Source: Apibacter sp. B3706
GTDB taxonomy: Bacteria; Bacteroidota; Bacteroidia; Flavobacteriales; Weeksellaceae
NCBI RefSeq assembly: GCF_011082725.1
Contig: NZ_CP049715.1
Location: 310,001-374,000 of the forward strand
Length of the DNA stretch: 64,000 bases
Direction: 5' to 3'
Shown here: positions 755 to 62,128 of the stretch, in pieces
Layout: the number at the start of each line of letters is the position of its first letter
Numbering within the stretch: the stretch's first letter is position 1
The notes under the pieces: generated by a model
What the model was told of the DNA's origin: nothing
What the model saw: only the letters and a program-made list of their open reading frames with translations
The model's database searches: none
Made by a program: the position numbers and the translations under genes

Positions 755-3142
755 ATGAAAGTAATTATCAATATTCTAATTATATGCTCATTTTCAACCT
801 GTTTATACTCTCAAATGGCAGTAGTAGAAGGAATAGTTACCTTTAATAACCAAAACCAAGTGTTGGAAAATTGTTCTGTTCAGGTAGATAATATAGATTA
901 TATAACTAAAACCGATCAAAAAGGATATTATAAGATAATTCTTCCGGAGGGAAACTATGGGTTAACGTTTTCAAATCCTAAATTTGACACCCAACGTATT
1001 CCTGTTTATTTAAAAAAAGGAGAAAAGAAGAATATATCGATTAAACTTAAACCTATAACCTATACCGATATTGATAACGTTGTAATTATCGGAAAATCGG
1101 CCTTACAAAAAACTAAAGAAACCCCGTATAATGTAACTGTTTTAGATGCTAAATCATTTTATAATAGCTCATTAGATTTAGCTCATATGCTTGAAAAAGC
1201 ACCCGGAGTTAAAATAAGAGAAGCCGGAGGGGTAGGTTCGGATCTGTCAATTTCATTAAATGGTTTTACGGGAAAACATGTTAAATTATTCATGGATGGT
1301 GTTCCTATGCAGGGTTTCGGTTCTGCTTTTCAATTAAACAATATTCCGGTAAATATAGCGGATCGAATTGAGATATATAAAGGAGTGGTACCTATTGAAT
1401 TTGGTACTGATGCAATTGGTGGAGTGATCAACATTGTGACGGCGCAAAGTACTAAAACCTATATGGATTTATCGTATTCTTCCGGTTCATTCAATACCTA
1501 CCGAACCGATTTAAATATGGGGCATACCTCAAAATCAGGATTTACGATTCTACTCAATGCTTTTCAAAATTATTCAGATAATAATTACAAAGTAAAGACT
1601 TCTATATTGGATTTGAAAACAAATGTCTTTTCATCCGAAAAATTTTGGGTCAAAAGATTTCATGGAAAATATCACAATGAAACAGGTATTTTAAAATTAG
1701 GCTTTATTAAGAAACGATGGGCAGATAAATTTCTAATAGGGATTACATTAGGACAAGAATTTTCCGATATACAAAATGCCAATTTAATGGAAATTGTTTA
1801 CGGAATGAAAAAACGAATGGGTACAACTGTTATGCCTTCTTTAGTTTACGGAAAAAATAATTTTTTGATCAATAAATTAAATGTTAAAATCACAGCAAAT
1901 TATAATAGAAATTATAATAAAAATACGGACACGGCAGCCAGACAATACAATTGGTTAGGAGATTATGTACCCAAAAAAACTAGAGGTGAAGGCATTTATT
2001 CTCTTTCAAAATTTTATAATGATAACTATTCCTCAACAGCAAATTTAACGTATCGATGGAATGATATGCATTCCTTTGCTGTAAATGATGTTCTATCCGG
2101 CTACAAAAGAAAGAAATCCGATCGGGTTTCTATAGTGGAAATCGGTTCCGTGCGCGATACTATGAGAAGAACCAATTTGAAAAATATTTTAGGAGGTTCT
2201 TATAGTTTTAATTATAAAAATATATGGAATGCGAATGTTTTTGGTAAATATTACTATCAAAAAGTGAAAGGTCCTAAAAATATTTCTACTCTGACCAATA
2301 GTACAAAATATATTGAAAACACGGAAAAATTTAACACCAACGGGTATGGCTTAGCCGTCACTTATTTTTTGAAAGATTTTCAGTTTAAGGGATCATTAGA
2401 AAAGGCATACCGTCTGCCCACAGATAATGAACTCTTTGGAGATGAAGTATTAGAATTGGGAAATTCAGTTTTAAAAGCTGAAAATTCCATGAATTACAAT
2501 CTAGGAATCCTTTTAAATAAACAATTTAAAAATAATAATGTTATCTACTTTGATGTCAGTGGTTATATAAGAGATACTAAAGATTATATCCGAAGAATTA
2601 TTGAACAACATTATGGTACAGCAACTTATGTCAACCACGGAAAAGTAAAAAATATTGGAATAGATGCTGAAATAAAATTCTATTACAGAAATAAATTTTC
2701 GTTAGGAGGAAATGTAACCTACCAAAATTTAAGGAATAAAGAGCGATATTCTTCCGTCAGTGGAAACAGGAAAGATATTACCTATAATGACAGAATACCC
2801 AATGTTCCTTATTTTTTCGGAGCAATTGATGCAGCATATTTTATTAACGATCGGGTAAAAAGAAGAAACAATTTAAGTATTGGTTACACATTCAACTTTA
2901 TTGAAAAATTTTATCTTAATTGGGAGAGTTTGGGAAATAAAAAATCGAAATACACTTTACCCCGACAACTATCACATGATCTAATTATAAATTACACTTT
3001 ATACAAAAGTTCATTGAGTGTTTCATTGGAACTTAAAAATATCACCAATGAATTTCTTTATGACAACTACAGTTTACAAAAGCCCGGTAGGGCTTACTAT
3101 ATCAAGCTAAGATATTCATTTTCAAAATCACATAAAAAGTAA
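755..3142 (+). CDS. TonB-dependent outer-membrane receptor (ferric ligand or haem type)
   Basis: At 795 residues this is a typical TonB-dependent receptor. A signal peptide covers about residues 1-19. A carboxypeptidase-regulatory-like beta domain follows (about 22-100, VEGIVTFNNQNQVLENC). The plug spans about 118-228, with the usual MLEKAPGVKIRE, LFMDGVPMQGFG and RIEIYKGVVPIEFGTDAIGGVINIVT-type blocks. A 22-strand-type barrel fills the rest and ends in an aromatic-rich strand. It imports a scarce ligand across the outer membrane using TonB energy. The neighbouring DUF4374 lipoproteins and flavin reductase system point to a ferric siderophore, haem or similar iron source. The substrate itself cannot be read from sequence. 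It is first in a run with 3156 and 4419 (13- and 30-bp gaps). Confidence 0.93.
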   Translation: MKVIINILIICSFSTCLYSQMAVVEGIVTFNNQNQVLENCSVQVDNIDYITKTDQKGYYKIILPEGNYGLTFSNPKFDTQRIPVYLKKGEKKNISIKLKPITYTDIDNVVIIGKSALQKTKETPYNVTVLDAKSFYNSSLDLAHMLEKAPGVKIREAGGVGSDLSISLNGFTGKHVKLFMDGVPMQGFGSAFQLNNIPVNIADRIEIYKGVVPIEFGTDAIGGVINIVTAQSTKTYMDLSYSSGSFNTYRTDLNMGHTSKSGFTILLNAFQNYSDNNYKVKTSILDLKTNVFSSEKFWVKRFHGKYHNETGILKLGFIKKRWADKFLIGITLGQEFSDIQNANLMEIVYGMKKRMGTTVMPSLVYGKNNFLINKLNVKITANYNRNYNKNTDTAARQYNWLGDYVPKKTRGEGIYSLSKFYNDNYSSTANLTYRWNDMHSFAVNDVLSGYKRKKSDRVSIVEIGSVRDTMRRTNLKNILGGSYSFNYKNIWNANVFGKYYYQKVKGPKNISTLTNSTKYIENTEKFNTNGYGLAVTYFLKDFQFKGSLEKAYRLPTDNELFGDEVLELGNSVLKAENSMNYNLGILLNKQFKNNNVIYFDVSGYIRDTKDYIRRIIEQHYGTATYVNHGKVKNIGIDAEIKFYYRNKFSLGGNVTYQNLRNKERYSSVSGNRKDITYNDRIPNVPYFFGAIDAAYFINDRVKRRNNLSIGYTFNFIEKFYLNWESLGNKKSKYTLPRQLSHDLIINYTLYKSSLSVSLELKNITNEFLYDNYSLQKPGRAYYIKLRYSFSKSHKK

Positions 3143-3155
3143 ATAAATCAATAAT

Positions 3156-4388
3156 ATGAGAAATAGATCATTTAAAAGAAAATTCCTTTTAATAGCAGCA
3201 CTATCAGTTTTCATAGTGGGATGCGGAAGCGATGACAATGATAACCTATCAGAAAATCCGGGAACAGATTCTGCTACACAAAAATTTGTTATAGCTGCAA
3301 CTATGGGCAGTTCCAGCTATATGTTAACTTCCGATAATCTGGATATAGGCAGAACCACGCTATCGGGAAATGGCGTGGAAATAGGAAGAGTATTTACACA
3401 TTTTATAAATAACCACTATAAATCATTAGTAGGGCTGGTATACGGACAAGGAGGGGCATACGTTGGATATTGTTTCATTTTGGCTCCAAACGGCAAAATT
3501 CAAAAATTAAAAGGAGATCAGGATATGGGATTTCAAGTAAACAGTTATAATACCGTTGGAAATTTCGGAAATTATATGATTTCTGCACGAGGGTCACAGG
3601 CTTTAGCAGACGGAACGACAGGAGCCATCTTCAGTTTTATAGAACAAGAAGGAACAAATATGTCTATAACCCAAAAAACATTACATACCGATAATATAGT
3701 TGGAAACGGTTATAATCCAACGATTAGCGGAATTGTTGATACCGAAAATGGAGAATTTCTTACCTCAGCCGTTAGTCCCAATGATCCCGATAAAGTGCAT
3801 GTGTTAGCTTTAGACGCAAATTTAAATGTTAAACGAATTTATTCGGATGATAGAATTAGTTACTCTGCGGGAAGATGGCGATCTGCCATGTATTCTCAAA
3901 TAGGAAAAGATGATAACGGAAATACCTATGTATTTTCAGGTTCATACGAAAGCGCTACCACAAAACCAGCGGGTGCGTTATGTATAAAAAAAGGAAGTAC
4001 TGCCTTCGATAAAGATTACTATTTTAATATTGAACAAGCATCAGGGGGCTATCGATTTCGTAAAGTATTTCATATAACAGAAGACTATTTTCTGTTAGAA
4101 TTTTATAACGAATTGGACTATAGCATTATAAGCCCTGCCTCTCAATATGCAATTCTAAAAATGAACACCAAAAATTTTAATTGGCTAAGAGATGGTTTCC
4201 CATCTAAAGAACAAATTACGGCAACGGGATGGCCATTAAGTTATGACGGTAAAATATATCTGCCGGTTACCACATCCAATGAGCAGCCTACCGTATACGT
4301 GATCGATCCTAAAACTACTTCAGCTAAAGCAGGATTAGTGGTTGAAGCAGATGGCATTACGGGATTATCCCTATTAAAAAAACAATAA
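3156..4388 (+). CDS. DUF4374 lipoprotein, copy 1
   Basis: This 410-residue protein has a lipoprotein signal ending FIVGCGSDDNDN, with the lipidated cysteine at residue 23. The acidic S-D-D stretch after the cysteine resembles the signal that sends Bacteroidota lipoproteins to the cell surface. The body is a repeated beta-sheet family (DUF4374) often found beside TonB receptors for iron ligands. It shares the blocks NYM/NYI..., GNTYVFSG, ASGGYRFRKVF and LLEFYNE with the next gene, so the two are tandem paralogues. The family has no proven biochemical role; a surface accessory that binds ligand for the receptor is the usual inference. It starts 13 bp after the receptor stop, so co-transcription is likely. 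Confidence 0.85.
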   Translation: MRNRSFKRKFLLIAALSVFIVGCGSDDNDNLSENPGTDSATQKFVIAATMGSSSYMLTSDNLDIGRTTLSGNGVEIGRVFTHFINNHYKSLVGLVYGQGGAYVGYCFILAPNGKIQKLKGDQDMGFQVNSYNTVGNFGNYMISARGSQALADGTTGAIFSFIEQEGTNMSITQKTLHTDNIVGNGYNPTISGIVDTENGEFLTSAVSPNDPDKVHVLALDANLNVKRIYSDDRISYSAGRWRSAMYSQIGKDDNGNTYVFSGSYESATTKPAGALCIKKGSTAFDKDYYFNIEQASGGYRFRKVFHITEDYFLLEFYNELDYSIISPASQYAILKMNTKNFNWLRDGFPSKEQITATGWPLSYDGKIYLPVTTSNEQPTVYVIDPKTTSAKAGLVVEADGITGLSLLKKQ

Positions 4389-4418: not shown

Positions 4419-5651
4419 ATGAAAAAAACAAATTTTATCCAAAAAGTATTAGTAAGCTTTTTGGCCGGATGCATGACTATATCATGTAGTAGCGATGATG
4501 ATAATACGGTAGCCACACAACCCATTCCTACTAAAGCAGATAAGTTTGTAATAGCTGCTGCTCCCGGGAGTGGAAAATTAGGTACAGGAACTTATTTTTT
4601 GACTGTCAATCATTTAGACAGCGGTAGAGATAGTATTTCAGGAAATTCTAATTCAGTGAAAACAACCAGTTCATTTACACAGATCGTAGTAAACAATGCA
4701 AGCACATTGGTTGGATTTATTTATCCCAACGGATCAGATTTAGGGCAAGGAAAATCAGGATGTAGAGCATTTAAATATGACACAGATGATAAAATGAAAG
4801 AATTGCAAGGAAGTCCGATAATTATTGGTAGATTTTCAGTTACAGGAAATTTTGGAAAATATATTTATGCCATATCCAATAAAGACAACAGCTTCCTGTA
4901 TGAAAGAAATGGAGATAATATTTCCATGATAGATAAACCTATCGATTTAAGTTCGCATTTGATTGATGACAAAAAACCAACCATTACAGGAATTGCAGAC
5001 AGAGGAAATAACGAAATAGCTGCTGCATTTAAATATACAAATTCAGATAATGTTTATGTAGCCTTGATGGATTATAACATGACTATTAAATCAGTCATTA
5101 ACGATTCGCGTCTAAGCTTTTCAGGAGGCCAATGGAAAGGTGCTGTATATTCTCAAATTTGGCCGGATGGATCAGGAAACGTATACGTATTTTCAGGTGC
5201 CGGATCCGGGAATACCACTGCTAAAAAAGCCGGTGCTTTAAAAATTAATAAAGGTTCTCAAACATTCGATTCAAATTATTATTTTGATATTGAAACTGCT
5301 TCAGGAGGATATAAATTCAGAAAAGTTTTTCCGATTACTAAAGATTACTATTTACTTGAATTTTACAATGAAACAACAAGTTCCGGAAACGGTTCCAAAG
5401 CAACACGTTTTGCAGTCGTTAAAATGGAATCTAAATCTTTTAAATGGGTAGAAGGAATTCCGGACTATACCCAAGTGTCAAGTAACGGATGGCCGTTAGC
5501 ATATAAAGGTAAAATATATTTACCATTAAATCCGGTTAGCGGAAATTCAGCCATATATGCCATAGATCCGGTAACGGCAACAGCCAATAAAGGATTTGAA
5601 CTTTCCAATGATAAGGAGCATATTAGAGCGGTCACTTTCTTGAAAAATTAA
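4419..5651 (+). CDS. DUF4374 lipoprotein, copy 2
   Basis: This is the second DUF4374 lipoprotein, also 410 residues, with lipid cysteine 23 in TISCSSDDDN followed by an acidic surface-export-like stretch. It matches copy 1 along its whole length: both have a FVIAA block near residue 43, a GNFGKY/GNFGNY turn, GNVYVFSG and ASGGYKFRKVF. Sequence outside these blocks differs widely, so the duplication is old. It is last in the receptor operon, and a strong hairpin terminator follows at 5680-5706. The ligand is unknown. Two copies may bind different faces or forms of the ligand carried by the receptor; that is inference. Confidence 0.85.
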   Translation: MKKTNFIQKVLVSFLAGCMTISCSSDDDNTVATQPIPTKADKFVIAAAPGSGKLGTGTYFLTVNHLDSGRDSISGNSNSVKTTSSFTQIVVNNASTLVGFIYPNGSDLGQGKSGCRAFKYDTDDKMKELQGSPIIIGRFSVTGNFGKYIYAISNKDNSFLYERNGDNISMIDKPIDLSSHLIDDKKPTITGIADRGNNEIAAAFKYTNSDNVYVALMDYNMTIKSVINDSRLSFSGGQWKGAVYSQIWPDGSGNVYVFSGAGSGNTTAKKAGALKINKGSQTFDSNYYFDIETASGGYKFRKVFPITKDYYLLEFYNETTSSGNGSKATRFAVVKMESKSFKWVEGIPDYTQVSSNGWPLAYKGKIYLPLNPVSGNSAIYAIDPVTATANKGFELSNDKEHIRAVTFLKN

Positions 5652-5679: not shown

Positions 5680-5706
5680 AAAGCAGTTGATTTATTCAAC
5701 TGCTTT
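5680..5706 (+). terminator. Hairpin terminator after the receptor/DUF4374 operon
   Basis: An 11-bp perfect stem (AAAGCAGTTGA / TCAACTGCTTT) encloses a short TTTAT loop. T-rich sequence (ATTTTGTTTTTATTT) follows shortly after. It separates the receptor operon from the ankyrin/redox operon, which therefore probably has its own promoter. Confidence 0.75.
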
Positions 5707-5719
5707 AAACTATTTTGTT

Positions 5720-5732
5720 TTTATTTAGTCTA
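5720..5732. promoter_or_regulatory. Shared 13-mer, candidate operator upstream of the ankyrin/redox operon
   Basis: This is the second copy of TTTATTTAGTCTA (first copy at 693-705). It lies just after the terminator and 60 bp before the ankyrin start. The similar distances to the two start codons suggest a shared regulator for receptor and reductase. The role is inferred only from recurrence and position. Confidence 0.35.
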
Positions 5733-5791
5733 TATAAGTATTATTGAAAAAAAATTACTATTATAGTGCTCTCATTTAAAATATAAAAAAA

Positions 5792-7261
5792 ATGAAAAGA
5801 AGTTTCGTAACTCTCCTTTGCATGGCATCCATTTGGATGAATGCTCAAATAAATAATACCTTGTTAGATAATAACTTTTGGAAAAATAAACCCGATTTAC
5901 AAGCAGTTGAAACAGAAATTAAAAAAGGTAATAGTCCGAATGAGTTTAATGATAACAAATTTGACGCTGTTACAGTTGCCATACTAAATGAAGCCCCTTT
6001 AGAAACCATTAAATACCTGTTAAAACAGAAAGGAAATGACATAAATAAATTAACTCATGATAACAGAATTTATTTACATTGGGCAGCTTTAAAAGGAAAC
6101 ACAGAATTAATAAAATTTTTAATCGATAAAAAGAGCAATATCAATTTAGAAGATTCCCACGGACTCACTCCTTTAGTATTTGCAGCAAATGCAGGTCAAA
6201 CCAATGTTGAAATCTATCGCTTGTTTTTTGATGCCGGATTAAATCCTAAGCAAAAATATAAAAACGGGGCAACCATTTTGCTTTTAGCTATTCCCTATGA
6301 TTCTGATCTTCACCTTACCGATTATTTACAATCCAAAGGTCTTTCTTTATCGGATACAGACGATAAAGGAAGCACAGCATTTGATTATGCGGCCAGAAAA
6401 GGCGATATAGAATTATTAAAAAAATTGAAAACAAGAGGGATAAAAAGCACCAACAATGCTCTTTTACTGGCAGCAGAAGCTACACGGAGAACAGCCAATA
6501 CCTTAGATGTTTTTAAATATTTGGTAGAAGATATAAAATTAAATCCTTTAGTCGTTAATGACGATCAACAAACCGTACTTCATATAGTCGCAACAAAACC
6601 TGATCAGGTAGAAATTATCAACTATTTTATTTCTAAAAAGGTTGATCCACAAAAAAAAGATAAAGAAGGAAATACAGCATTTATAAAAAGTGCTTCAGGA
6701 AAAGATATTAAAAATACACAAGTATTTTTACCTTTAGTTAAAAATATCAATGAAGTTAACAATAAGGGAGAAAGTGCTCTAATGTTAGCAGTAAAATCAA
6801 GTACCCCGGAAATGATTGCTTTGTTACTTGCTAATGGAGCTAATATAAATCAGAAAGATAAAAAAGGAAACAGTTTGGTTTATTATCTTATCCAATCTTA
6901 TCATCCTAGAAATAAAAATTTTGATGCAAATTTAGAATTACTAAAAGATAAAGGAGTTGATTTTAATACAAAACAAGAAGAAGGCAATACCCTCTATCAT
7001 TTAGCAGTCGGTAAAAATGATATCAATTTGATTAAAAAAATTTCAGGATTGAAAGTAGACGTTAATACAGCTAATAACGAGGGTATAACTCCTTTACAAA
7101 GAGCCGCAATGATTGCTAAAGACGATACTATTTTGAAATATCTGCTATCTTTAGGTGCAAAAAAAGACCTAAAAACAGAGTTTGGAGAAACAGCCTATGA
7201 TTTAGCAAAAGAAAACAAAATCTTAACTCAAAATAAAGTATCCGTTGATTTCTTAAAATAA
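5792..7261 (+). CDS. Secreted ankyrin-repeat protein
   Basis: This 489-residue protein has a Sec signal peptide (MKRSFVTLLCMASIWMNAQ), so it should act in the periplasm or at the surface. The rest is ankyrin repeats, recognisable from about residue 90 to the end by blocks such as GNTELIKFLIDKKSNINLED, GESALMLAVKSS and GITPLQRAAMIAKDD, with roughly 10-12 repeats of about 33 residues, some degenerate. Ankyrin repeats bind proteins and have no catalytic residues. It is the first gene of a compact operon: DUF2271 starts 6 bp later, then the PepSY reductase and ApbE. A scaffold or docking role for the periplasmic redox proteins is a reasonable inference, not shown by the sequence. Confidence 0.88.
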   Translation: MKRSFVTLLCMASIWMNAQINNTLLDNNFWKNKPDLQAVETEIKKGNSPNEFNDNKFDAVTVAILNEAPLETIKYLLKQKGNDINKLTHDNRIYLHWAALKGNTELIKFLIDKKSNINLEDSHGLTPLVFAANAGQTNVEIYRLFFDAGLNPKQKYKNGATILLLAIPYDSDLHLTDYLQSKGLSLSDTDDKGSTAFDYAARKGDIELLKKLKTRGIKSTNNALLLAAEATRRTANTLDVFKYLVEDIKLNPLVVNDDQQTVLHIVATKPDQVEIINYFISKKVDPQKKDKEGNTAFIKSASGKDIKNTQVFLPLVKNINEVNNKGESALMLAVKSSTPEMIALLLANGANINQKDKKGNSLVYYLIQSYHPRNKNFDANLELLKDKGVDFNTKQEEGNTLYHLAVGKNDINLIKKISGLKVDVNTANNEGITPLQRAAMIAKDDTILKYLLSLGAKKDLKTEFGETAYDLAKENKILTQNKVSVDFLK

Positions 7262-7267
7262 TCTATT

Positions 7268-7750
7268 ATGAAGATGAATATTAAAATAGCAGCTTACAGT
7301 TTACTTCTAATGTTATTGCCTTTTATTGGCCATGCACAGACTCATAAATATAAATGTTTACTTCAAATGAATAATTATATAGGAGAAGGTGCCTACATAG
7401 TAGTATCATTAATTTCTCCGCAAGGTCAATATGAAAAGACATTATACATAATGGGAGAAGATAAAAGATGGTATAATACCTTAAAAGAATGGCATAAATA
7501 CAATTCAAAAAAGAAAACTATAGATGCTAAAACCGGAGCATCCGTAACCGGCGGAGACCGTAGCATAACCACGTTGGAAATTGAAGATTCTAAAATTTAT
7601 AAGGGATATAAACTCCGATTTGAAACTGCTGTTGAAGATCAAAATTATTATGTAAAAGATCTGGAAATCCCTTTAAATTCTCAAGCCTTTACGGGTAAAA
7701 TATCCGGAACGGGATATATAAATTATGTGAGACTAAGTAAGATTCAATAA
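7268..7750 (+). CDS. DUF2271 protein with an FMN-attachment motif
   Basis: This is a 160-residue exported protein (signal peptide to about residue 23, ending GHAQ) of the DUF2271 family. Residues 86-94 read DAKTGASVT. This fits the target motif D-x-x-[S/T]-G-A-[S/T]-x-T, which ApbE enzymes modify with FMN; Ser92 would be the attachment residue by analogy with NqrC and RnfG. An ApbE gene lies two genes downstream in the same operon. The likely role is a periplasmic one- or two-electron carrier that takes electrons from the PepSY reductase (starting 4 bp downstream) and passes them to a periplasmic acceptor. Family and motif are seen directly; flavinylation and the acceptor are inference. Confidence 0.85.
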   Translation: MKMNIKIAAYSLLLMLLPFIGHAQTHKYKCLLQMNNYIGEGAYIVVSLISPQGQYEKTLYIMGEDKRWYNTLKEWHKYNSKKKTIDAKTGASVTGGDRSITTLEIEDSKIYKGYKLRFETAVEDQNYYVKDLEIPLNSQAFTGKISGTGYINYVRLSKIQ

Positions 7751-7754
7751 TTCA

Positions 7755-9953
7755 ATGACGCTTTCCATTTGGAGATATGCTCACTTAACTTTAGCATTAG
7801 TTTCTTTCATATTTTTGAGTATGGCTTCCATAACGGGATCCATACTTGCTTTTTATACCATTGAAGAAAATATGTCACCATATTGCATTCATGATCTAAA
7901 TCGTATTAGTATTGCGCAGACTCTTTCAGCATTACAATCTACTGTTCAAGAAATTTCTGAATTGGAAATTAATGAAAAATCGTTTGTAAAATTACAAGGT
8001 ACCGATACGAATGGGGAGGAGGTAGTAGGATATATAAATCCTAAAACGGGAACTATCATAGGAAAACCTCAAAAAAACAATTCTTTTATCTTGTGGGTTA
8101 CCTCATTACATAGATCCCTGTTTATGCATGAAACAGGACGCATACTTGTGGGTATCAATTCATTTTTACTTTTTTTAATAGCAACTTCAGGAAGCATACT
8201 TATAATAAAAAGACAGAAAAAATTCAGCAACTTTTTTTCAAAAATAAAAAAAGCATCTTTTTCTCAATATTACCATACTTTGTTTGGACGTTTACTGCTT
8301 ATACCTATTGGTATAATTTCATTAACCGGAAGTTATCTATGTTTAGAAAGGTTTCATTTTTTTTCCAAAGAGGGTGAAAAAATTATCTATCATTCCGTTC
8401 AAGATCAAACTACAACAAAGAAACTATTATATATAGATATCCCTCTTTTTTCACGAATTAAACTTTCAGAAGTTCGTAAAATAGAATTTCCGTTTTCCGA
8501 TGATCCCGACGAATATTTTATTTTAAAATTAAAAGATAAAGAATTAACCGTCAGTCCTTTAACAGGTGAAGTTGTCTCTCAAGTTAATGATCCGATTTCA
8601 AAAAAGTTAGCAACTCTAAGTTTAGACCTTCATACCGGCAGAACTCATGTAGTTTGGGCTGTCATTCTTTTTATAGCCGGTGTATATATATTGTTTTTTA
8701 TAGTTTCAGGATTTACCATAACTTTGAAAAGAGGAAAACGTAATTTTAAAAATAAATACCTCCCTGAAGATAGCCAAATTATACTATTGGTAGGATCAGA
8801 AAATGGAAGTACGTTCAACCTGGCTCATTCAATTCATCAACAAATGGTTTCGCAAAATTATCGATCCTATTTAACAGAGCTTAATAAGTACCAAATATAT
8901 CCAAAAGCGGAATATATACTAATTTTAACTTCAACCTATGGACTGGGAGATGCTCCTTCAAATGCGCGTAAATTCGGAACACTTCTAAAAGAAAATCCAC
9001 AAAACCAAAACGTTAAGTTCAGTGTAGTAGGGTTTGGATCAAAGTCCTATGAAGATTACTGTTTGTTTGCTAAAACTGTAGACGAACAAATCAAAAAAGA
9101 GGCATGGAGCGAATCGATAGTAGATTTACACACAGTAAACGACCAATCAATAGATGAGTTTACAACATGGATAAAAGAATGGAATAATAAAACGGGTATC
9201 AAACTATATGCTGATGCCAAATTTTATACAAGTAAACCCAAAAATCGTATAAAAATGAAGATAGAGGAGGTTTACATACCTAATGATTCTAAAGAAACTT
9301 TTATAGTACAAATAAATCCCGGTAAACAAAAATTTACTTCAGGCGATATTCTGGCCGTTTATCCCTGTAAAGATCAAAAGGAAAGATATTATTCCATAGC
9401 TAAAGTCAATCATAACATACAGTTATCAATAAAATATTATCCGAGCGGCTTGGCGTCAGAATATTTAATAAATCGGAAAAAAGGAGATACCATATACGGG
9501 AAAATTTTAACTAACACTTCTTTTCATTTTCCCGAAAAAGCAAATAAAGTAGTTATGATTGCCAATGGAACAGGAATAGGTCCCTTTTTAGGAATGATCG
9601 ATCAAAACTTAACCAAAGTTAAAACTTATTTGTATTGCGGATTCAGACAGCGATGTGAAATAGTAGATCAATATATTTGTTTTTTGAAGGAACAAATGAA
9701 TAAAGGATATTTAGAACAATATAATTTTTCGTATTCATCAGATACAGAAAATAAATATGTGATGGATTTAATTCAAAATGACAGAGATTTTTTTGTTAAT
9801 TTATTGGAAGAGGGAGGAGTAATCATGATTTGTGGAGCTTTGCAAATGCAACTGGAGGTAGAAAAAGTCTTGGATGAGGTAGTTTTTGTAGATAGCCTAA
9901 AAAAATGTAATGATTACAAAAGAAAAGGACTAATTGTAACCGATTGTTATTAA
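7755..9953 (+). CDS. PepSY-domain membrane reductase with flavodoxin and FNR domains
   Basis: This 732-residue fusion begins with a PepSY-type membrane part. Membrane segments lie near residues 9-33, 132-152, 176-195 and 299-324. Histidines at 10, 119, 125, 174, 293 and 298 lie in or beside them and are candidate haem b ligands. A flavodoxin-like FMN domain follows from about 341 (LVGSENGSTFNLAHSI, LTSTYGLGDAPSNARKF). A ferredoxin-NADP reductase module runs from about 500 (RYYSIAKV, IANGTGIGPFLGMI, ICGALQMQLEVEKVL). The layout moves electrons from cytosolic NAD(P)H through FAD, FMN and haem to the periplasm. It lies between DUF2271 and apbE with a 4-bp gap and a 1-base overlap. Periplasmic reduction of an iron ligand is the likely purpose. 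Confidence 0.88.
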   Translation: MTLSIWRYAHLTLALVSFIFLSMASITGSILAFYTIEENMSPYCIHDLNRISIAQTLSALQSTVQEISELEINEKSFVKLQGTDTNGEEVVGYINPKTGTIIGKPQKNNSFILWVTSLHRSLFMHETGRILVGINSFLLFLIATSGSILIIKRQKKFSNFFSKIKKASFSQYYHTLFGRLLLIPIGIISLTGSYLCLERFHFFSKEGEKIIYHSVQDQTTTKKLLYIDIPLFSRIKLSEVRKIEFPFSDDPDEYFILKLKDKELTVSPLTGEVVSQVNDPISKKLATLSLDLHTGRTHVVWAVILFIAGVYILFFIVSGFTITLKRGKRNFKNKYLPEDSQIILLVGSENGSTFNLAHSIHQQMVSQNYRSYLTELNKYQIYPKAEYILILTSTYGLGDAPSNARKFGTLLKENPQNQNVKFSVVGFGSKSYEDYCLFAKTVDEQIKKEAWSESIVDLHTVNDQSIDEFTTWIKEWNNKTGIKLYADAKFYTSKPKNRIKMKIEEVYIPNDSKETFIVQINPGKQKFTSGDILAVYPCKDQKERYYSIAKVNHNIQLSIKYYPSGLASEYLINRKKGDTIYGKILTNTSFHFPEKANKVVMIANGTGIGPFLGMIDQNLTKVKTYLYCGFRQRCEIVDQYICFLKEQMNKGYLEQYNFSYSSDTENKYVMDLIQNDRDFFVNLLEEGGVIMICGALQMQLEVEKVLDEVVFVDSLKKCNDYKRKGLIVTDCY

Positions 9954-11005
9954 TGAATTTCAAGAAAAATAGTAAATATATGAGAGGGAAATATGTACTA
10001 TTGGCAGCATTATTTGTATTATCTTACATAAACATTAATTCGCAAGTACAACGAAACCGCACAGCAACATTAATGGGTTGTAAATTTGACTTTTCAATAC
10101 TAGCAGAAGATTCCCTACAAGCAGAAAAATATATAGATAAGGCTATCGATGAAATAGTACGGATTGAAAATTTAATATCGGATTGGAAGCCTGATTCACA
10201 AGTTTCAAAGGTTAACCAAAATGCAGGTATACAGCCCGTAAAAGTAGATAGAGAAGTATTGGAACTTACTCGAAGAGCTATTAAAATCTCAGAGATTACA
10301 GAAGGAGCATTTGATATAAGTTTTGCAGCTATGGATAAAATTTGGAAATTTGACGGTTCTATGAAAAAAGTGCCCTCAGAGGAGCAAATTAAAGAATCCA
10401 TAAAAAAAATAGGCTATAAAAATATCATTATAGATACTTTACACTCTACTCTCTTTTTAAAGCTTCCCGGAATGAAAATCGGATTTGGATCCATAGGAAA
10501 AGGATACGCAGCTGATAAAGCAAAAGAACTAATGGTAAAAAATAATGTAAAAGCGGGGATAATTAACGCATCAGGAGATATAAGTGTTTGGGGGCATAAA
10601 ATTAATGGAGAATATTGGAACATTGGAATAATTAATCCCTTTGAGCCTTCGGATATTACAGGTTTTTTTACACTTAAAGATGAATGCGTCACAACATCCG
10701 GTTCTTATGAAAAATATGTCGAATTAGAAGGTAAAAAATATTCTCATATTATCGATCCTCGCACGGGATATCCCGTAAAAGGAATTAAAAGTGTCAGTGT
10801 GATAGGTCCGAATGCCGAAACGGCCAATGGATTCAGTACCTCAATAATGGTACTCGGAGTAAAAGCCGGACGCAAACTCATTAACCACTATCCGGATTAT
10901 AGTTGCCTCATTATTACAGATACGGGTAAAATCCGTAAATCAAAGTATTTTAAAACAAAAGTAGAATTTTATAATAAAAAGATAAAGTCTGCACCCCGAC
11001 TTTAA
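9953..11005 (+). CDS. apbE: FAD:protein FMN transferase (ApbE)
   Basis: ApbE transfers FMN from FAD to a Ser/Thr in target proteins outside the cytoplasm. The blocks seen are TATLMGCKFDF near the N-terminus, GFGSIGKGYAADKAKELM, NASGDISVWG and SHIIDPRTGYPVKG, all typical of the family, at a normal length of 350 residues. I start it at the ATG at 9953, which overlaps the reductase stop as TAATG and suggests translational coupling. A TTG at 9944 is in frame but unlikely. An ATG at 9980 (MRGKYVLLAALFVLSY) would give a cleaner signal peptide and is a real alternative. Its obvious substrate is the DUF2271 protein encoded at 7268. Its stop overlaps the convergent glycosyltransferase by 4 bp. Confidence 0.93.
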   Translation: MNFKKNSKYMRGKYVLLAALFVLSYININSQVQRNRTATLMGCKFDFSILAEDSLQAEKYIDKAIDEIVRIENLISDWKPDSQVSKVNQNAGIQPVKVDREVLELTRRAIKISEITEGAFDISFAAMDKIWKFDGSMKKVPSEEQIKESIKKIGYKNIIIDTLHSTLFLKLPGMKIGFGSIGKGYAADKAKELMVKNNVKAGIINASGDISVWGHKINGEYWNIGIINPFEPSDITGFFTLKDECVTTSGSYEKYVELEGKKYSHIIDPRTGYPVKGIKSVSVIGPNAETANGFSTSIMVLGVKAGRKLINHYPDYSCLIITDTGKIRKSKYFKTKVEFYNKKIKSAPRL

Positions 11006-33743: not shown

Positions 33744-35324
33744 TCAATTTACATCCCAAACTAATTTTGTTTTCATATCATCAGGTCCTCCCAATCCTTT
33801 AACAGCTTCATAATAATTTTTTGAATTCTGTGTAGAAAGATGAGAAGGATAAGGAATACGAGTCGGTAGATCAGTCATATTATTGACTAAAGGCATAAAA
33901 GTATACGTAGTTCCTTCGGGAGTTTTATTATACGCCGGAAGAGTATGCGATTGATTAGGTAATAATAAAGTTTTAGGAAACCCTGTTCTTCTATATTCTG
34001 CCCATGCCTCATGAGGTTGCATATAAAGTGCAATATATTTCTGTGTTAGTACATTTTCTTCATTTGCCGGCGGCAAAGTGCTTAAAAAGGCTGTTTGTTC
34101 TGCAGCAGATACATTCCACTTATCAAACGAAGCTTTTACACCTCTTTCATAATGTGCTTGATCCCAATTATTTAATTCGGATAATATAAATTCAACTTCA
34201 GCGTATTCCATAAGTACTTCACCTCTGTTAATATGTAAAACGTCATAACTAGGGAAAGAAATAGTGCTGGAGGTGAACACTTCAGATGCCATTTCGCTTT
34301 TAACACCATAAGGCATCCCCTCATAATCATCTAAATTAGTGGATGATATATACGTATTATTTTTTACATCGTCGATACTTGCTTTTTTAGGAGAGGAGAA
34401 TTTATAAAGTCTTGGATCAGCAGAAAAATTACCTGTTTTTCCTTTTAATAATTCAATAAAAGTATTGGTTACTGCAAAATCAGTTCTATTTTTAACAAAA
34501 TAAGCCATCCACATTGGATTAGCATCTGATGTAGTATTTCCATACGCAAATACTGCGTTATCATCATTAGATGTAAATACACCCATTGAAATCGCATCAT
34601 TAGCTTCGGCTAAGGCTTCAGGTAAAACGCTTTTTAAACGATTAGCTAATCTTAGACGTAATGAATTGGCAAATTTTTTCCATTTTACCGCATTACCTTC
34701 ATACATGTGATCTCCTGTAGTGACTTTTTCAGAAGGATCAAGTTGGCTGGAAGCTTCTTTTAATTCTTTTAAAATGTCTTTATATATGGTTATTTGTGAA
34801 GCAAATTTTGGAGTTTTATATTTTTCAACCTGTAAAGCCTGAAAATCCGGATTAGATTGTCCCCCGTAAGACCAATAAGGAACATTTCCGTAAGTATCTG
34901 TAAGTTGCATAAATAAATAACTTAACATTATTCTTGCGACAGCTATTTGATTGTTTATAGCACCAAATTGCACATTGCTTATCGGATCGGCTTCTACTAA
35001 TTCAATGGAGGTTTTAAGATTTTCTGCAGCGCGATAATAATCTTTCCATAAGTTTTGATTAGCTCCGTCTCTATACTGATATCGATCTTCTTCCGTATAA
35101 TTTACCTGACACCAATACTGTATCCAAGGAAGAACCATTCTTCCGGACCCCCATTCATCTCGAGTGTTATCAATAAAATATCGGCTACCGTATCTAAAAG
35201 TAGTATAACCGGGAACTTTCTCCGGATTATTGGGATTGGTATTGATGTTTTCAAAATCATTGTCGCAAGATACAATGGTAGATAGAAAAATTAGAGAAGC
35301 TATATAAATGGTTATTTTTTTCAT
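33744..35324 (-). CDS. SusD/RagB-family surface lipoprotein
   Basis: This 526-residue lipoprotein has signal MKKITIYIASLIFLSTIVSC (lipid Cys20) and then the SusD opening FENINTNPNNPEKVP. TPR-like helices carry DNLKTSIE-type blocks and YLFMQLTDTYGNVPYWSYGG; EVLMEYAEVEFILSEL is another family landmark. It resembles the SusD-like_2 branch. SusD proteins cap the SusC channel and bind nutrient at the cell surface. The partner SusC gene is 15 bp upstream. No glycoside hydrolases, peptidases or regulators flank the pair, so the nutrient is unknown. Confidence 0.93.
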   Translation of the reverse strand: MKKITIYIASLIFLSTIVSCDNDFENINTNPNNPEKVPGYTTFRYGSRYFIDNTRDEWGSGRMVLPWIQYWCQVNYTEEDRYQYRDGANQNLWKDYYRAAENLKTSIELVEADPISNVQFGAINNQIAVARIMLSYLFMQLTDTYGNVPYWSYGGQSNPDFQALQVEKYKTPKFASQITIYKDILKELKEASSQLDPSEKVTTGDHMYEGNAVKWKKFANSLRLRLANRLKSVLPEALAEANDAISMGVFTSNDDNAVFAYGNTTSDANPMWMAYFVKNRTDFAVTNTFIELLKGKTGNFSADPRLYKFSSPKKASIDDVKNNTYISSTNLDDYEGMPYGVKSEMASEVFTSSTISFPSYDVLHINRGEVLMEYAEVEFILSELNNWDQAHYERGVKASFDKWNVSAAEQTAFLSTLPPANEENVLTQKYIALYMQPHEAWAEYRRTGFPKTLLLPNQSHTLPAYNKTPEGTTYTFMPLVNNMTDLPTRIPYPSHLSTQNSKNYYEAVKGLGGPDDMKTKLVWDVN

Positions 35325-35339
35325 ATTGAATATTTTAAT

Positions 35340-38300
35340 TTAGAACTTAACTTGCACATTAACTCCAAATGATCTGGTAGTAGGCATAGATCCTCCTTCA
35401 ATTCCTGAAGCATTTCCACTACCATAATTAGCGACCTCAGGATCCATAGATTTCCAATCTAATCCCCATACAAATAAATTTCTTGCAAAGGCAGAAAATG
35501 TTATGGAATTAATAAAATCTCCTAAATATTGAGAGGGAAGAGAATAAGCTATTGACAATTCGCGCAGTTTGATGTAATCCGCGTCGAATACATTTTGTGC
35601 ACTAGGTCCACTAAAAAAATGCTTAGAATATTCTGTTGCCGAAACTCTAATATCATTAGGTTTTCCATTTTCTTTAACGCCGTCTACGATAATACCGTTT
35701 TCTCTAATTCCATTTGCAGCAGTTTCAGGTAATATTCCGGAGCTCATACCCCACATATGAGTAGTTGAAAAATATTTACCGCCTTTTTGCCAATCAATTT
35801 GAAATCCTAAATTCCAATTTTTGTAAGTGAAGGAATTTCTAAAGCTCATGTTAAAATCGGGAAGTATTGATCCTAAGGGTACGTTTTTATCGGTTTTCAG
35901 ATATAACCCATTACTACCCACTACTTTTTTTCCATCTTTATAAACAAAGTCTGTCCCGTAAATTTGTCCGTATCTATACCCGGGTAGTGCAACGACAAAA
36001 GCATTAAATGGAGCTTTAGCTATGGTTAGTGAACTTAAATCCTCACTCAAAGATTTGATTTCATTATCAGATTTTGAAAAATTATAATTAAAATCCCATC
36101 TAAAATTCTCTTGTCTAATTGGAACTATATTCAATGAAACTTCTATTCCTTTATTAACTAATTTTCCGGCATTCATCATTGCATATTTGAAACCGGCAGA
36201 ACCGTCTAAAGGTACTTTAGTTATTAAGTCTTTGGTGGTAGTTTGATATAATGAAATATCCCCATTTAATCTTCTTTGGAACATTTGAAACTCAACCCCT
36301 AATTCAAAAGATTCCAATTTTTCGGGTTTTAATTTATCTGTTTTAGCAACAGTTGTTAACCAAAACCAAGGATCTTTTAAATACAAGCTGCCATAATTCG
36401 GATCCTCATCCTCATCTATATTGTAAAATGTATTGATGAGTTGATAAGGATCAGTATCATTTCTAACTTCAGAATATCCCCCTCTAATTTTTAAAAATTC
36501 CAACCAATTGCTGGTAAGATATCTAGTAACTACAAAACTGGTTGCTACTGATGGATAGAAAAAAGAATTGTTTTTAGAAGGTAATGAAGAAGACCAGTCA
36601 TTTCTACCGGTAGTTTCTAAGAATACAAAATTGTCATATCCTAAACTAAATGAATAAAACAAACTGTTTACTCTTTTCTTCTCTTTTTCATTCATAACTA
36701 AAGACGGCTCTAATGAATTATTTAGATTATACCAGTCTCTTATAATTAGCCCTCCTTTAGTTTTTCCATTCATTCTTCTATATGTATATTCCCTTCGGTT
36801 AGTTCCGGCAAAAGAGTTAAGTGAAAAGTTCCCTATATTTTTGTCATAATGTAAAGTTGCTTCATAATTTAGATCAGTATATTTTCTCTCTGAAATTTTA
36901 AATTGAGAAAGAGCATGTGATCCAACAGCAGTCCTGTTTTCTGTATGAAGAGTATAGGTATCAAGCATTACCTTTCCATTTACATACATATCTTTTGTTA
37001 AATTATAAATTAAACCGGCGGTACCATATAAACGATCTCTATTGTCTTTATTGGTATTTTTGTTTATAGTCCAATAAGGATTATCTGAATAAGCAGGTTT
37101 TGGATTATCCCAAGATTCTCTGTTCCAAGTTCTTTGTGTACCGTCTGCTAACTCATATTTTTGTAGATCATTATAGTCTAATGAGGTTTGACCAAAATGA
37201 AACATTTTTTGAATAATGTTGTTATTGTCATATCCCACTTCAGGTCTGTTGAAACCTCTTGTAGAAGTATAAGCTGCAGAAGCATTTATTTTTAAATCAT
37301 CAGATAATTTTGAATTCAGATTCATGGATAATGAATTTTTAGTTAAGTCTGAATTTGGAGTTATTCCGGATGATTTAGTATTATTATATCCCAATCTGAT
37401 ATTAGTATTTTCAACACTTCTGCTAAAAGAAATACCATTATTATATGTTACACCGGTTTTGAAAAATTTCTTATAATCATTTTTAGGATATATCCACGGT
37501 TTTGCAACTAAATAATCATTTGAAAATTCAGGATCGAATGCATTCCAATGTAAGACTTTAACATTCGGATCGTATTTTGGACCCCAAGATTCATCGGTTC
37601 TATAGTCAACCACCAGATAATCCACACCATTAATATTTTTTGTTGCAAATGTTTTGCTTCCGCCACCACCATATAATTTTTGCTGATGAGGCATTTTGTA
37701 AACTTTGTCAAATACAACACCTGAATTAAATACAATCTCAGTTTTACCTCTTTTTGCTTTTTTTGTAGTAATCATTATAGCTCCATTCATGGCTCTGGAT
37801 CCGTATAATGCCGCGGCAGTAGCTCCTTTAAGCACGGAAATATTTGCTATATCGTCGGGATTAATATCACCGAATGAATCTCCATAATCAATACCACCGG
37901 CTCCTCGTTCAGTGTTTTTATCATTGATATTTTGATCTATTAAAGGAATACCGTCTACAACAATAAGAGGTTTATTGGATTGAGATAGAGACCTCATTCC
38001 TCTTAATCTGATTTGTGTTGAACCTCCCATGGTTCCACTATTATTAACGATTTGCAATCCCGAAACTTTTCCCGAAAGTGAATTAATTGGATTACTTTCC
38101 CTGGTAACGGAAAGATCGTCGCCATTTACTGATTGAGTCGCATAACCCAACGACTTTTTTTCTCTTGTGATACCTAAAGCAGTTACCACGACTCCTTCAA
38201 TTACTGTTTCCTTTTTTTCAGCAGGTTCTTTGTTTTCTGTAACTAGAGGCTGTAGAACCACATCATAGAAACTTTGATCATTAACAATAAAACTTGCAGT

Positions 38301-38537
38301 TTCGTCATCAAATGATAAAATTTCGATGGTTTGTCCGGGTTCAGCATCAATTGAAAAATTTCCTGAGTCGTCAGTATACGTTTTTTTGGTAGATCCTTGT
38401 ATCGTAACAGAAACATCAGCTTGTGGCTGACCGTCACTCCCAAGAACTTTCCCGCTAATCGTTTTCATCTGAGCCCAGGCAAAAGCCGAACCCAAGAAGA
38501 TAAACGAAAATCCTAAGAAAATTCGGTTTACTCTCAT
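35340..38537 (-). CDS. SusC/RagA-family TonB-linked outer-membrane transporter
   Basis: At 1065 residues this is a full-length SusC. A signal peptide is followed by a carboxypeptidase-regulatory-like domain (about 25-95, KTISGKVLGSDGQPQADVSVTI), a TonB-box-type EGVVVTALGITREKKSLGYA, and a plug with NPINSLSGKVSGLQI, GSTQIRLRGMRSL and ISVLKGATAAALYGSRAMNGAI. The long barrel ends MPTTRSFGVNVQVKF with a terminal Phe. It pumps nutrient captured by the SusD lid. It is first in the two-gene operon, with a -7 box upstream at 38562. Confidence 0.95.
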   Translation of the reverse strand: MRVNRIFLGFSFIFLGSAFAWAQMKTISGKVLGSDGQPQADVSVTIQGSTKKTYTDDSGNFSIDAEPGQTIEILSFDDETASFIVNDQSFYDVVLQPLVTENKEPAEKKETVIEGVVVTALGITREKKSLGYATQSVNGDDLSVTRESNPINSLSGKVSGLQIVNNSGTMGGSTQIRLRGMRSLSQSNKPLIVVDGIPLIDQNINDKNTERGAGGIDYGDSFGDINPDDIANISVLKGATAAALYGSRAMNGAIMITTKKAKRGKTEIVFNSGVVFDKVYKMPHQQKLYGGGGSKTFATKNINGVDYLVVDYRTDESWGPKYDPNVKVLHWNAFDPEFSNDYLVAKPWIYPKNDYKKFFKTGVTYNNGISFSRSVENTNIRLGYNNTKSSGITPNSDLTKNSLSMNLNSKLSDDLKINASAAYTSTRGFNRPEVGYDNNNIIQKMFHFGQTSLDYNDLQKYELADGTQRTWNRESWDNPKPAYSDNPYWTINKNTNKDNRDRLYGTAGLIYNLTKDMYVNGKVMLDTYTLHTENRTAVGSHALSQFKISERKYTDLNYEATLHYDKNIGNFSLNSFAGTNRREYTYRRMNGKTKGGLIIRDWYNLNNSLEPSLVMNEKEKKRVNSLFYSFSLGYDNFVFLETTGRNDWSSSLPSKNNSFFYPSVATSFVVTRYLTSNWLEFLKIRGGYSEVRNDTDPYQLINTFYNIDEDEDPNYGSLYLKDPWFWLTTVAKTDKLKPEKLESFELGVEFQMFQRRLNGDISLYQTTTKDLITKVPLDGSAGFKYAMMNAGKLVNKGIEVSLNIVPIRQENFRWDFNYNFSKSDNEIKSLSEDLSSLTIAKAPFNAFVVALPGYRYGQIYGTDFVYKDGKKVVGSNGLYLKTDKNVPLGSILPDFNMSFRNSFTYKNWNLGFQIDWQKGGKYFSTTHMWGMSSGILPETAANGIRENGIIVDGVKENGKPNDIRVSATEYSKHFFSGPSAQNVFDADYIKLRELSIAYSLPSQYLGDFINSITFSAFARNLFVWGLDWKSMDPEVANYGSGNASGIEGGSMPTTRSFGVNVQVKF

Positions 38538-61060: not shown

Positions 61061-62128
61061 TTATTTATTTTTATAAAAGTTATATACTACCTGAGAAATA
61101 TCGGCAATTATTCGAGCATTGGTTTTGTCGTCTTCTTTGGAATCTTTAATAAATACTGCAATAGAATATTGTTTCCCATTGGGTAAATAAACAAAACCGA
61201 TGTCATTATCGGCGGCTTTTAAGCCTTCCAAATTTCGGGAAGAACTGCCGGATTTATGTCCAATTAAAACTTTTTTAGGTAAAAGAGCTTTTAACTTATC
61301 CGAACCTGTTTCAGATTCTGTCATTGCTTGGAATAAGAAATCTTTATAGTTTTTACAAAAGATATCTTTATTTATAAAAATATCCAATAAACGGGCAGCT
61401 TCTAACGGAGTCGTCCAATTTATATATTGGTTATTAAAATCTTTGTTCATTTCCTCTTCAGTTGCTTGAATGGAAAAATTTTTACTTCCTAGTGTACGTA
61501 AATATAGATCTGTCATTTTAGTACCACTCATATAATAATATAAAGCATCAGAAGCATTGTTGTCACTTTTGGAAACCGTATAATTTAACAAATCGCCAAT
61601 TGGAATAGTAAAATTACCTTCCGGGTACTCTTTTGCTAAAGGGCTGTAAGTATCTTTTTTTATGTCTGATTTTTTCAGATATAAATTAGATTCCAAAGAA
61701 AGTAAATTATTGTTCATGTAGTCCAACAAAGCAAGTGCTTGATGAAATTTAAAAACGCTCATCGCCGGATACTCCATATCGTTATTAACTGTTAAGGTAT
61801 CTTTTCCGTCGAAAATTACGGCCACTCCCACAGTGGCTTTCTTATTCTTAGTAATGGAATGAATTTTTTTTTCTAAACTTTTGTCGGCAAGCTCTGAATG
61901 GCGATCGTATACATGATCATGAGAGTTAGAGTAATTTAAATTATCTTGTTTTTGTTGAAGTGAAAGTTCACGTTTTTTTTGTGCTTTTTCGTATCCGGAT
62001 AAATTTTGATTTTTGCCTATCTCTTTATATTGTCTGCCGTATTCTTTATTCATTTCTTTTCTTCCGGATTGAGCAAAGGCAGAAGTAGACAGCATTACTA
62101 GAAATGCTAAGGTTAAAAACTTGTTCAT
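61061..62128 (-). CDS. Class A beta-lactamase with an N-terminal extension
   Basis: This 355-residue serine hydrolase has a signal peptide ending STSAFAQ (residue 20) and class A motifs: S-x-x-K as SVFK (Ser124-Lys127), SDN (188-190), the omega-loop Glu region ATEEEMNKD (222-230), and KSG (292-294). It resembles the Bacteroidota subclass A2 group. The catalytic domain starts near residue 84, so about 63 residues (GRKEMNKEYGRQYKEIGK, YEKAQKKRELSLQQKQ) of basic, helical sequence precede it; most class A enzymes lack this. Beta-lactam hydrolysis is likely; spectrum cannot be predicted. An 11-bp inverted repeat lies 7 bp before its ATG. Confidence 0.88.
   Translation of the reverse strand: MNKFLTLAFLVMLSTSAFAQSGRKEMNKEYGRQYKEIGKNQNLSGYEKAQKKRELSLQQKQDNLNYSNSHDHVYDRHSELADKSLEKKIHSITKNKKATVGVAVIFDGKDTLTVNNDMEYPAMSVFKFHQALALLDYMNNNLLSLESNLYLKKSDIKKDTYSPLAKEYPEGNFTIPIGDLLNYTVSKSDNNASDALYYYMSGTKMTDLYLRTLGSKNFSIQATEEEMNKDFNNQYINWTTPLEAARLLDIFINKDIFCKNYKDFLFQAMTESETGSDKLKALLPKKVLIGHKSGSSSRNLEGLKAADNDIGFVYLPNGKQYSIAVFIKDSKEDDKTNARIIADISQVVYNFYKNK

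Follow-up and report, generated by a model that had tools for sequence, protein, structure and literature searches.

What is a set of genes for flavin-based electron transfer doing directly behind the genes of a TonB-dependent uptake system? The locus lies in the genome of Apibacter sp. B3706, in a window of 64,000 nucleotides, by which we mean the whole stretch of DNA analyzed (bases 310001–374000 of a one-contig genome of 2.30 Mb; coordinates below are those of the window unless stated otherwise). The original prediction read the genes as a periplasmic electron route that depends on flavinylation, is tied to TonB uptake, and releases iron from an imported ferric ligand.

Gene content and flavinylation motif

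The four tightly packed genes of that prediction are confirmed as open reading frames with Pfam matches. They lie on the forward strand and encode a secreted ankyrin-repeat protein (Ank, 489 aa, 5792–7261), a DUF2271 protein predicted to carry FMN (160 aa, 7268–7750), a reductase in which PepSY_TM, flavodoxin, and NAD-binding (FNR) domains are fused in one protein (732 aa, 7755–9953), and the FAD:protein FMN transferase ApbE (9944–11005). The intergenic gaps are 6, 4, and −10 bases; the overlap with the PepSY gene arises from the TTG start listed for ApbE, for which a later ATG is an equally likely start. Ank, DUF2271, PepSY_TM, Flavodoxin_1, NAD_binding_1, ApbE, and two DUF4374 proteins all score above curated Pfam cut-offs, while signal peptides and lipoboxes were assigned by eye.

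Upstream on the same strand are an XusA-type TonB-dependent receptor with a Plug domain (795 aa, 755–3142) and the two DUF4374 lipoproteins, XusB1 (3156–4388) and XusB2 (4419–5651), each of 410 aa. An AraC-family regulator with HTH_18 and HTH_AraC domains is encoded divergently on the reverse strand; its 5′ part occupies 1–616, and the whole gene (329 aa, genome 309627–310616, equivalent to L032:6627–7616) extends left beyond the window. The module was said to stand directly behind the receptor and the two DUF4374 proteins. The adjacency holds, but a terminator-like hairpin of 11 pairs intervenes on the forward strand (5680–5706; −15.8 kcal/mol, z −5.57, with 0 of 200 shuffles as good). With this hairpin between them, the Xus genes and the four-gene module are probably distinct transcription units. 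The terminator scan found 9 candidates against 5.2 expected, and the promoter scan was uninformative (60 found, 51.7 expected).

The receptor matches XusA of Bacteroides thetaiotaomicron (9gbc chain A) over residues 22–789 with 592 bits (E 1.6e-176); its score of 410 against the NCBI myxochelin-receptor model is under the cut-off of 925. Compared with the solved XusB structures as a profile of 8 sequences, the DUF4374 proteins score 164 bits with BtXusB, 113 with BvXusB, and 68 with BfXusB. An XusA-type receptor is therefore found here with an adjacent DUF4374 lipoprotein, for which the N-terminal C-x-S-D-D of XusB1, resembling a surface export signal, suggests a surface position. A PepSY reductase is also nearby, but with flavodoxin and FNR domains as fusion partners and on the far side of the hairpin.

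Both lipoproteins belong to the short class of XusB, for which the main text of the PNAS paper ties the missing hook to hydroxamate ligands (PMC13142918). Between two local alignments, 16 profile positions stand opposite 87 residues of B. viscericola XusB, and there is therefore no room for a hook. Pointing the other way, as read from the alignment, XusB1 retains equivalents of Bt R167, S168, Y411, and Q413, which contact ferric enterobactin, although it has none for R255 or the hook residues. XusB2 has diverged ligand loops and retains fewer of the contacts than XusB1. As a separate observation, XusB1 aligns with BtXusB (9gcy/8gex) in the manner of a circular permutation: in 9gcy, query residues 217–409 correspond to chain residues 110–317 and residues 44–146 to 323–425. 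The alignment with BvXusB (9gar) is collinear. The main text of the PNAS paper has no word starting “permut” (PMC13142918), and the permutation-like alignment could be relevant to the “hook in another blade” that it describes.

The flavinylation motif D-x-x-[S/T]-G-A-[S/T]-x-T is complete in this DUF2271, as predicted, but across the family its flanking D and last T are mostly replaced. Here it reads DAKTGASVT and begins at residue 86, which places TGAS at residues 89–92 and makes Ser92 the predicted acceptor. Searched as a DNA pattern for the full nine residues (shorter [ST]GA[ST] matches fall outside this count), the motif has one copy in the genome, in this gene, with none on the opposite strand and 0 and 0 in the reversed control. 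The genome encodes one ApbE and one DUF2271, and FMN_bind has no match in it; of the ApbE substrate families, this inventory covers these two, with NqrB, DUF3570, and flavodoxin-type substrates outside it. Among 45 aligned family members of DUF2271, 44 keep [ST]GA[ST], the only part of the motif that is retained. One family member (L074:9660–10160) has a degenerate motif, with SGET for TGAS; the adjacent ApbE is absent there, and that genome encodes its ApbE elsewhere.

ApbE and DUF2271 occur together in 6 of 9 genomes of the genus and are both missing from the other three, one of which is only 83% complete. In the family sample, all 46 genomes with DUF2271 have ApbE, against 39 of 102 others (Fisher p 5e-15, with relatedness ignored). 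A homologous DUF2271, from Amantichitinum, is described in the main text of Meheust et al. as being flavinylated by its own ApbE in E. coli (PMC8238504).

Four histidines of the reductase (His10, His119, His174, and His293) are each at least 98% conserved among 44 aligned proteins and are candidate heme ligands in the membrane part. Cytochrome P450 reductase, sulfite reductase, and nitric oxide synthase are among the best 60 of 67 PDB matches to the cytosolic part. PepSY_TM has one match in the genome, with no second one to act as XusC (the related family PF16357 was outside the search), and FeoB has one strong match of 679 aa. The clustering of a PepSY_TM protein with ApbE and an ApbE substrate is that of a PepSY-like flavinylation system.

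Two further observations by eye concern other parts of the window. A pair resembling SusD and SusC on the reverse strand (33744–38537) could form a second TonB-linked uptake system, and an open reading frame on the same strand (61061–62128) resembles a class A beta-lactamase and has an extended, charged N-terminal segment.

Conservation of the module and its link to Xus genes

The four-gene core has a conserved gene order, as the original prediction expected, in family, phylum, and named-genome neighborhoods. The family sample comprised 148 genomes, 46 of them with DUF2271, and 46 loci were compared, the window included. Ank precedes DUF2271 in 45 of the 46, the exception being a weak partial match (L077), and PepSY follows DUF2271 in 44, with one locus (L050) stopping at a contig end. 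ApbE comes next in 42; two loci stop at contig ends (L045 and L050), L074 is without it, and in L066 it lies 944 bases further. In the phylum sample (395 genomes), 34 places exceeded the cut-off. Of the 30 that we inspected, 26 have Ank (the window is one of these), three are ApbE-DUF2271 fusions without Ank, and one begins at a contig edge. Ank is thus present in 25 of 25 testable cases of stand-alone DUF2271.

The reverse search, from the ankyrin protein, gave the same picture. For the best 80 of 393 ankyrin relatives in named genomes, which are nearly all from Flavobacterium and hence not independent, the next module gene is DUF2271 in 80 of 80, and PepSY is present in 78. The closest ankyrin proteins in named genomes are those of A. 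mensalis (85%), an Apibacter MAG (80%), and A. adventoris (75%). Among open-licence papers, the literature search found none with ankyrin and DUF2271 together, and for any two of ankyrin, PepSY, and ApbE none of the best 20 of 24 was by its title about this system; one of the papers (PMC4403809) deals with hypothetical proteins of Treponema, including one ankyrin and one apbE.

The predicted tie to TonB uptake holds locally and is not general. XusA, XusB1, and XusB2 lie directly before the module in 4 of the 46 family loci, all from the genus (one, L054, with 1,978 bases between), and are absent from that place in 42. In 12 of the 46, the module has a TonB receptor similar to that of the window beside it. 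One genome of the genus contains the module and yields no DUF4374 match at all. In another (G090), the module lies at one contig end and XusA with a truncated XusB at a different one. Among 80 named loci with flanks of up to 5 kb, Xus genes stand beside the module in two Apibacter and one Flavobacterium (sp. Sd200, locus L168). The Flavobacterium locus has the order AraC, XusA, XusB, Ank, DUF2271, PepSY, with a single XusB and an opposite-strand gene at the place of ApbE.

Two family genomes (G029 and G061) have XusA-XusB without DUF2271, and close to them G061 encodes a plain PepSY protein, an arrangement shared with Bacteroides. Because the module occurs without DUF4374 and XusA-XusB without DUF2271, the two are separable and have been combined. 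Since most relatives carry the module without DUF4374, it is probably a general periplasmic reductase. In a locus with the Riemerella gene order (L034), the lipoprotein between the TonB receptor and Ank is not recognizable as an XusB (no Pfam match; probability 1.6). The best 8 of 11 open-licence papers retrieved for Xus with flavinylation terms include none that covers both.

The operator-like repeat and probable iron control

The two units share an operator-like inverted repeat. The sequence ATTTAGTCTA[A/T]A sits between AraC and XusA and recurs upstream of Ank past the strong hairpin; the first copy (696–708) reads ATTTAG-T-CTAAAC, and the second (5723–5735), 56 bases upstream of the ankyrin gene, reads ATTTAG-T-CTATAT. 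A 12-mer is common to the regions upstream of both units, and a slightly wider pattern has five exact copies in the genome. Of the other three copies, two are within open reading frames and one overlaps the end of an open reading frame just before the next. The 12-mer (2 and 3) is outnumbered in this genome by its reversed form (9 and 13). A genome-wide operator search with two mismatches was useless, with 479 matches against 724 for the reversed control, and the exact 12-mer was used instead.

Within 150 bases upstream of Ank at 45 family loci, the window among them, ATTTAG-N-CTAAAT occurs in 19 when one mismatch is allowed and in 31 when two are allowed. In 100 dinucleotide shuffles the corresponding means were 0.26 (maximum 2) and 2.82 (maximum 7), and the reversed pattern gave 0 and 3. 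In the remaining 14 loci the repeat is either missing or has three or more mismatches. It also precedes, with one mismatch at most, 7 of 279 other open reading frames of the family loci, four of them XusA and three divergent from XusA. In the named set, it lies within 250 bases of Ank at the same stringency in 56 of 80 loci, against 0 of 80 after single-base shuffling; in the Flavobacterium sp. Sd200 locus it is absent (three mismatches).

A TTAG-N-CTAA core is that of a DtxR/IdeR-type box. We considered such a box because of this core, and a single DtxR-family match is present in the genome. The hexamers, however, also occur in the Riemerella Fur box printed as ATTTAGAATTATTCTAAAT (PMC5609570), although nothing beyond them is shared and the spacing differs. 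Another Fur box is given in the CH-1 paper (PMC7976709).

Iron control is well supported by published work in Riemerella if its apparent orthology with this operon, assigned by gene order and product names rather than by sequence comparison, holds. In strain CH-1, iron depletion raises B739_0173 to B739_0177 by log2 values of 3.31, 3.64, 2.41, 3.06, and 1.05; their products are named as a TonB receptor, a hypothetical protein, an ankyrin, a predicted periplasmic protein, and a “nitric oxide synthase” (PMC5429918). In strain YM, iron starvation raises RAYM_04491, 04496, 04501, and 04506 by 5.24, 3.42, 2.80, and 1.84; RAYM_04506 is called ApbE, and two of the four are named only as hypothetical (PMC5609570). 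The YM genes stay iron-responsive without Fur (PMC5609570), whereas for CH-1 both binding and repression of B739_0173 by Fur are described (PMC7976709).

The name nitric oxide synthase is given to both B739_0177 and RAYM_04501. Because of their position, and because the reductase part in the window itself matches nitric oxide synthase chains, these proteins are more likely to be the PepSY-flavodoxin-FNR reductase. The reductase has thus probably been called nitric oxide synthase in two Riemerella papers, and the system may hide under that name elsewhere.

A proposed route for ferric siderophores and its relatives

We consider the locus to be an iron-starvation-induced route for ferric siderophores that combines Xus import with flavin-based periplasmic reduction, with a probability of about 0.6. 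XusA, XusB1, and XusB2 would capture and import a siderophore that, judging from homology, is probably the product of another microbe. ApbE would attach FMN to Ser92 of DUF2271, as is in print for the homologue, and the flavinylated protein would reduce the ferric complex in the periplasm. The domains and four conserved histidines suggest NAD(P)H in the cytosol as the electron source, with transfer by way of the FNR and flavodoxin domains to hemes of the PepSY membrane part. Fe(II) could then enter via FeoB, which is present in the genome. The step held with least certainty concerns Ank, which would be a constant partner in the periplasm and would most likely serve as a scaffold keeping DUF2271 close to the membrane reductase or its substrate. 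As a whole, the module probably acts as a general reductase of the periplasm, with Xus as one of its clients.

Several lines of evidence point to this siderophore route: the domains, motif, and histidines; the single ApbE and full motif with no FMN_bind; the co-occurrence of ApbE and DUF2271; the XusA/XusB homology; the shared 12-mer; the Riemerella induction; FeoB; and the flavinylated homologue. Against it stand the 42 of 46 loci without Xus directly upstream, the genus genome with the module and no DUF4374, the degenerate motif in L074, the role of Fur in Riemerella, which is split by strain, the Riemerella orthology assigned from gene order and names, the match of the repeat to the Fur box in its hexamers only, the 14 of 45 loci lacking a close copy of the repeat, and the commoner reversed 12-mer. 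The iron role originally proposed is supported by the XusA/XusB neighbors, the shared repeat, and the induction of the apparent Riemerella ortholog.

Some of the same evidence would fit a module that reduces ferric iron in the periplasm whatever its source (free Fe(III), citrate, or heme), with Xus adjacency reflecting co-regulation without a shared substrate. The 42 loci and the DUF4374-free genus genome argue for this reading, as do the module's own operator-like repeat, the hairpin between the units, and the lower fitness in EDTA that one of the two main texts on Caulobacter describes for PepSY and DUF2271 insertions (PMC12424826, a preprint; PMC12004947). We nevertheless regard it as unlikely, given that the arrangement of AraC, XusA, XusB, Ank, DUF2271, and PepSY recurs in Flavobacterium sp. 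Sd200 and that no second PepSY_TM protein was found to serve as XusC. It is highly improbable that iron sets only the timing and that the module serves another periplasmic redox task, such as protein repair or small-molecule reduction. The main text of Meheust et al. links flavinylated proteins to many acceptors (PMC8238504), but iron induction in Riemerella (PMC5429918, PMC5609570), the iron-linked Caulobacter homologues (PMC12424826, PMC12004947), and the adjoining XusA and XusB all favor a role in iron use.

A bolder extension of the siderophore route is doubtful. The flavinylated PepSY reductase of Bacteroidota may have an unrecognized, obligate, secreted ankyrin partner that provides a docking site for the FMN carrier and delivers it to the ferric substrate, in the place of the DUF4198 protein of other clusters; in Apibacter and one Flavobacterium the module might replace XusC, giving siderophore piracy driven by NAD(P)H. 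The locus also points to the ankyrin protein as a component for study. It offers a compact setting, with one ApbE, one full motif, one PepSY_TM protein, and one strong FeoB match, for studying periplasmic electron delivery to ferric siderophores.

The idea of iron reduction by TonB-linked PepSY/DUF2271/ApbE systems is not new, and Xus has likewise been published. In their main text, Meheust et al. (2021) describe PepSY/DUF2271/ApbE clusters, propose iron reduction, and report a TonB receptor in 231 PepSY clusters (PMC8238504). The Apibacter module resembles their PepSY-like systems in its PepSY membrane protein, DUF2271, and ApbE, and an NAD-binding domain is reported there on 1,077 PepSY-like genes. 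Those clusters often hold DUF4198, whereas Apibacter has a steady ankyrin protein and adjacent Xus genes. The word ankyrin does not occur in that main text, nor in the main texts of the two Caulobacter papers (PMC12424826, PMC12004947). The latter describe, for HiuABC and CCNA_03155–03159, PepSY proteins in siderophore use and among Fur-controlled iron genes; CCNA_03155–03159 includes DUF2271 and a flavin-dependent reductase, as in the Apibacter module. The locus also resembles XusABC of B. thetaiotaomicron, as set out in the main text of the PNAS paper (PMC13142918), in having an XusA receptor, a DUF4374 lipoprotein XusB, and a PepSY reductase nearby. It differs from the Bacteroides system in its pair of short-class XusB proteins and in its reductase, which includes flavodoxin and FNR domains and is encoded together with an ankyrin protein, DUF2271, and ApbE. 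What the locus adds to these published kinds is the steady ankyrin partner and the joining of Xus to flavin-based reduction.
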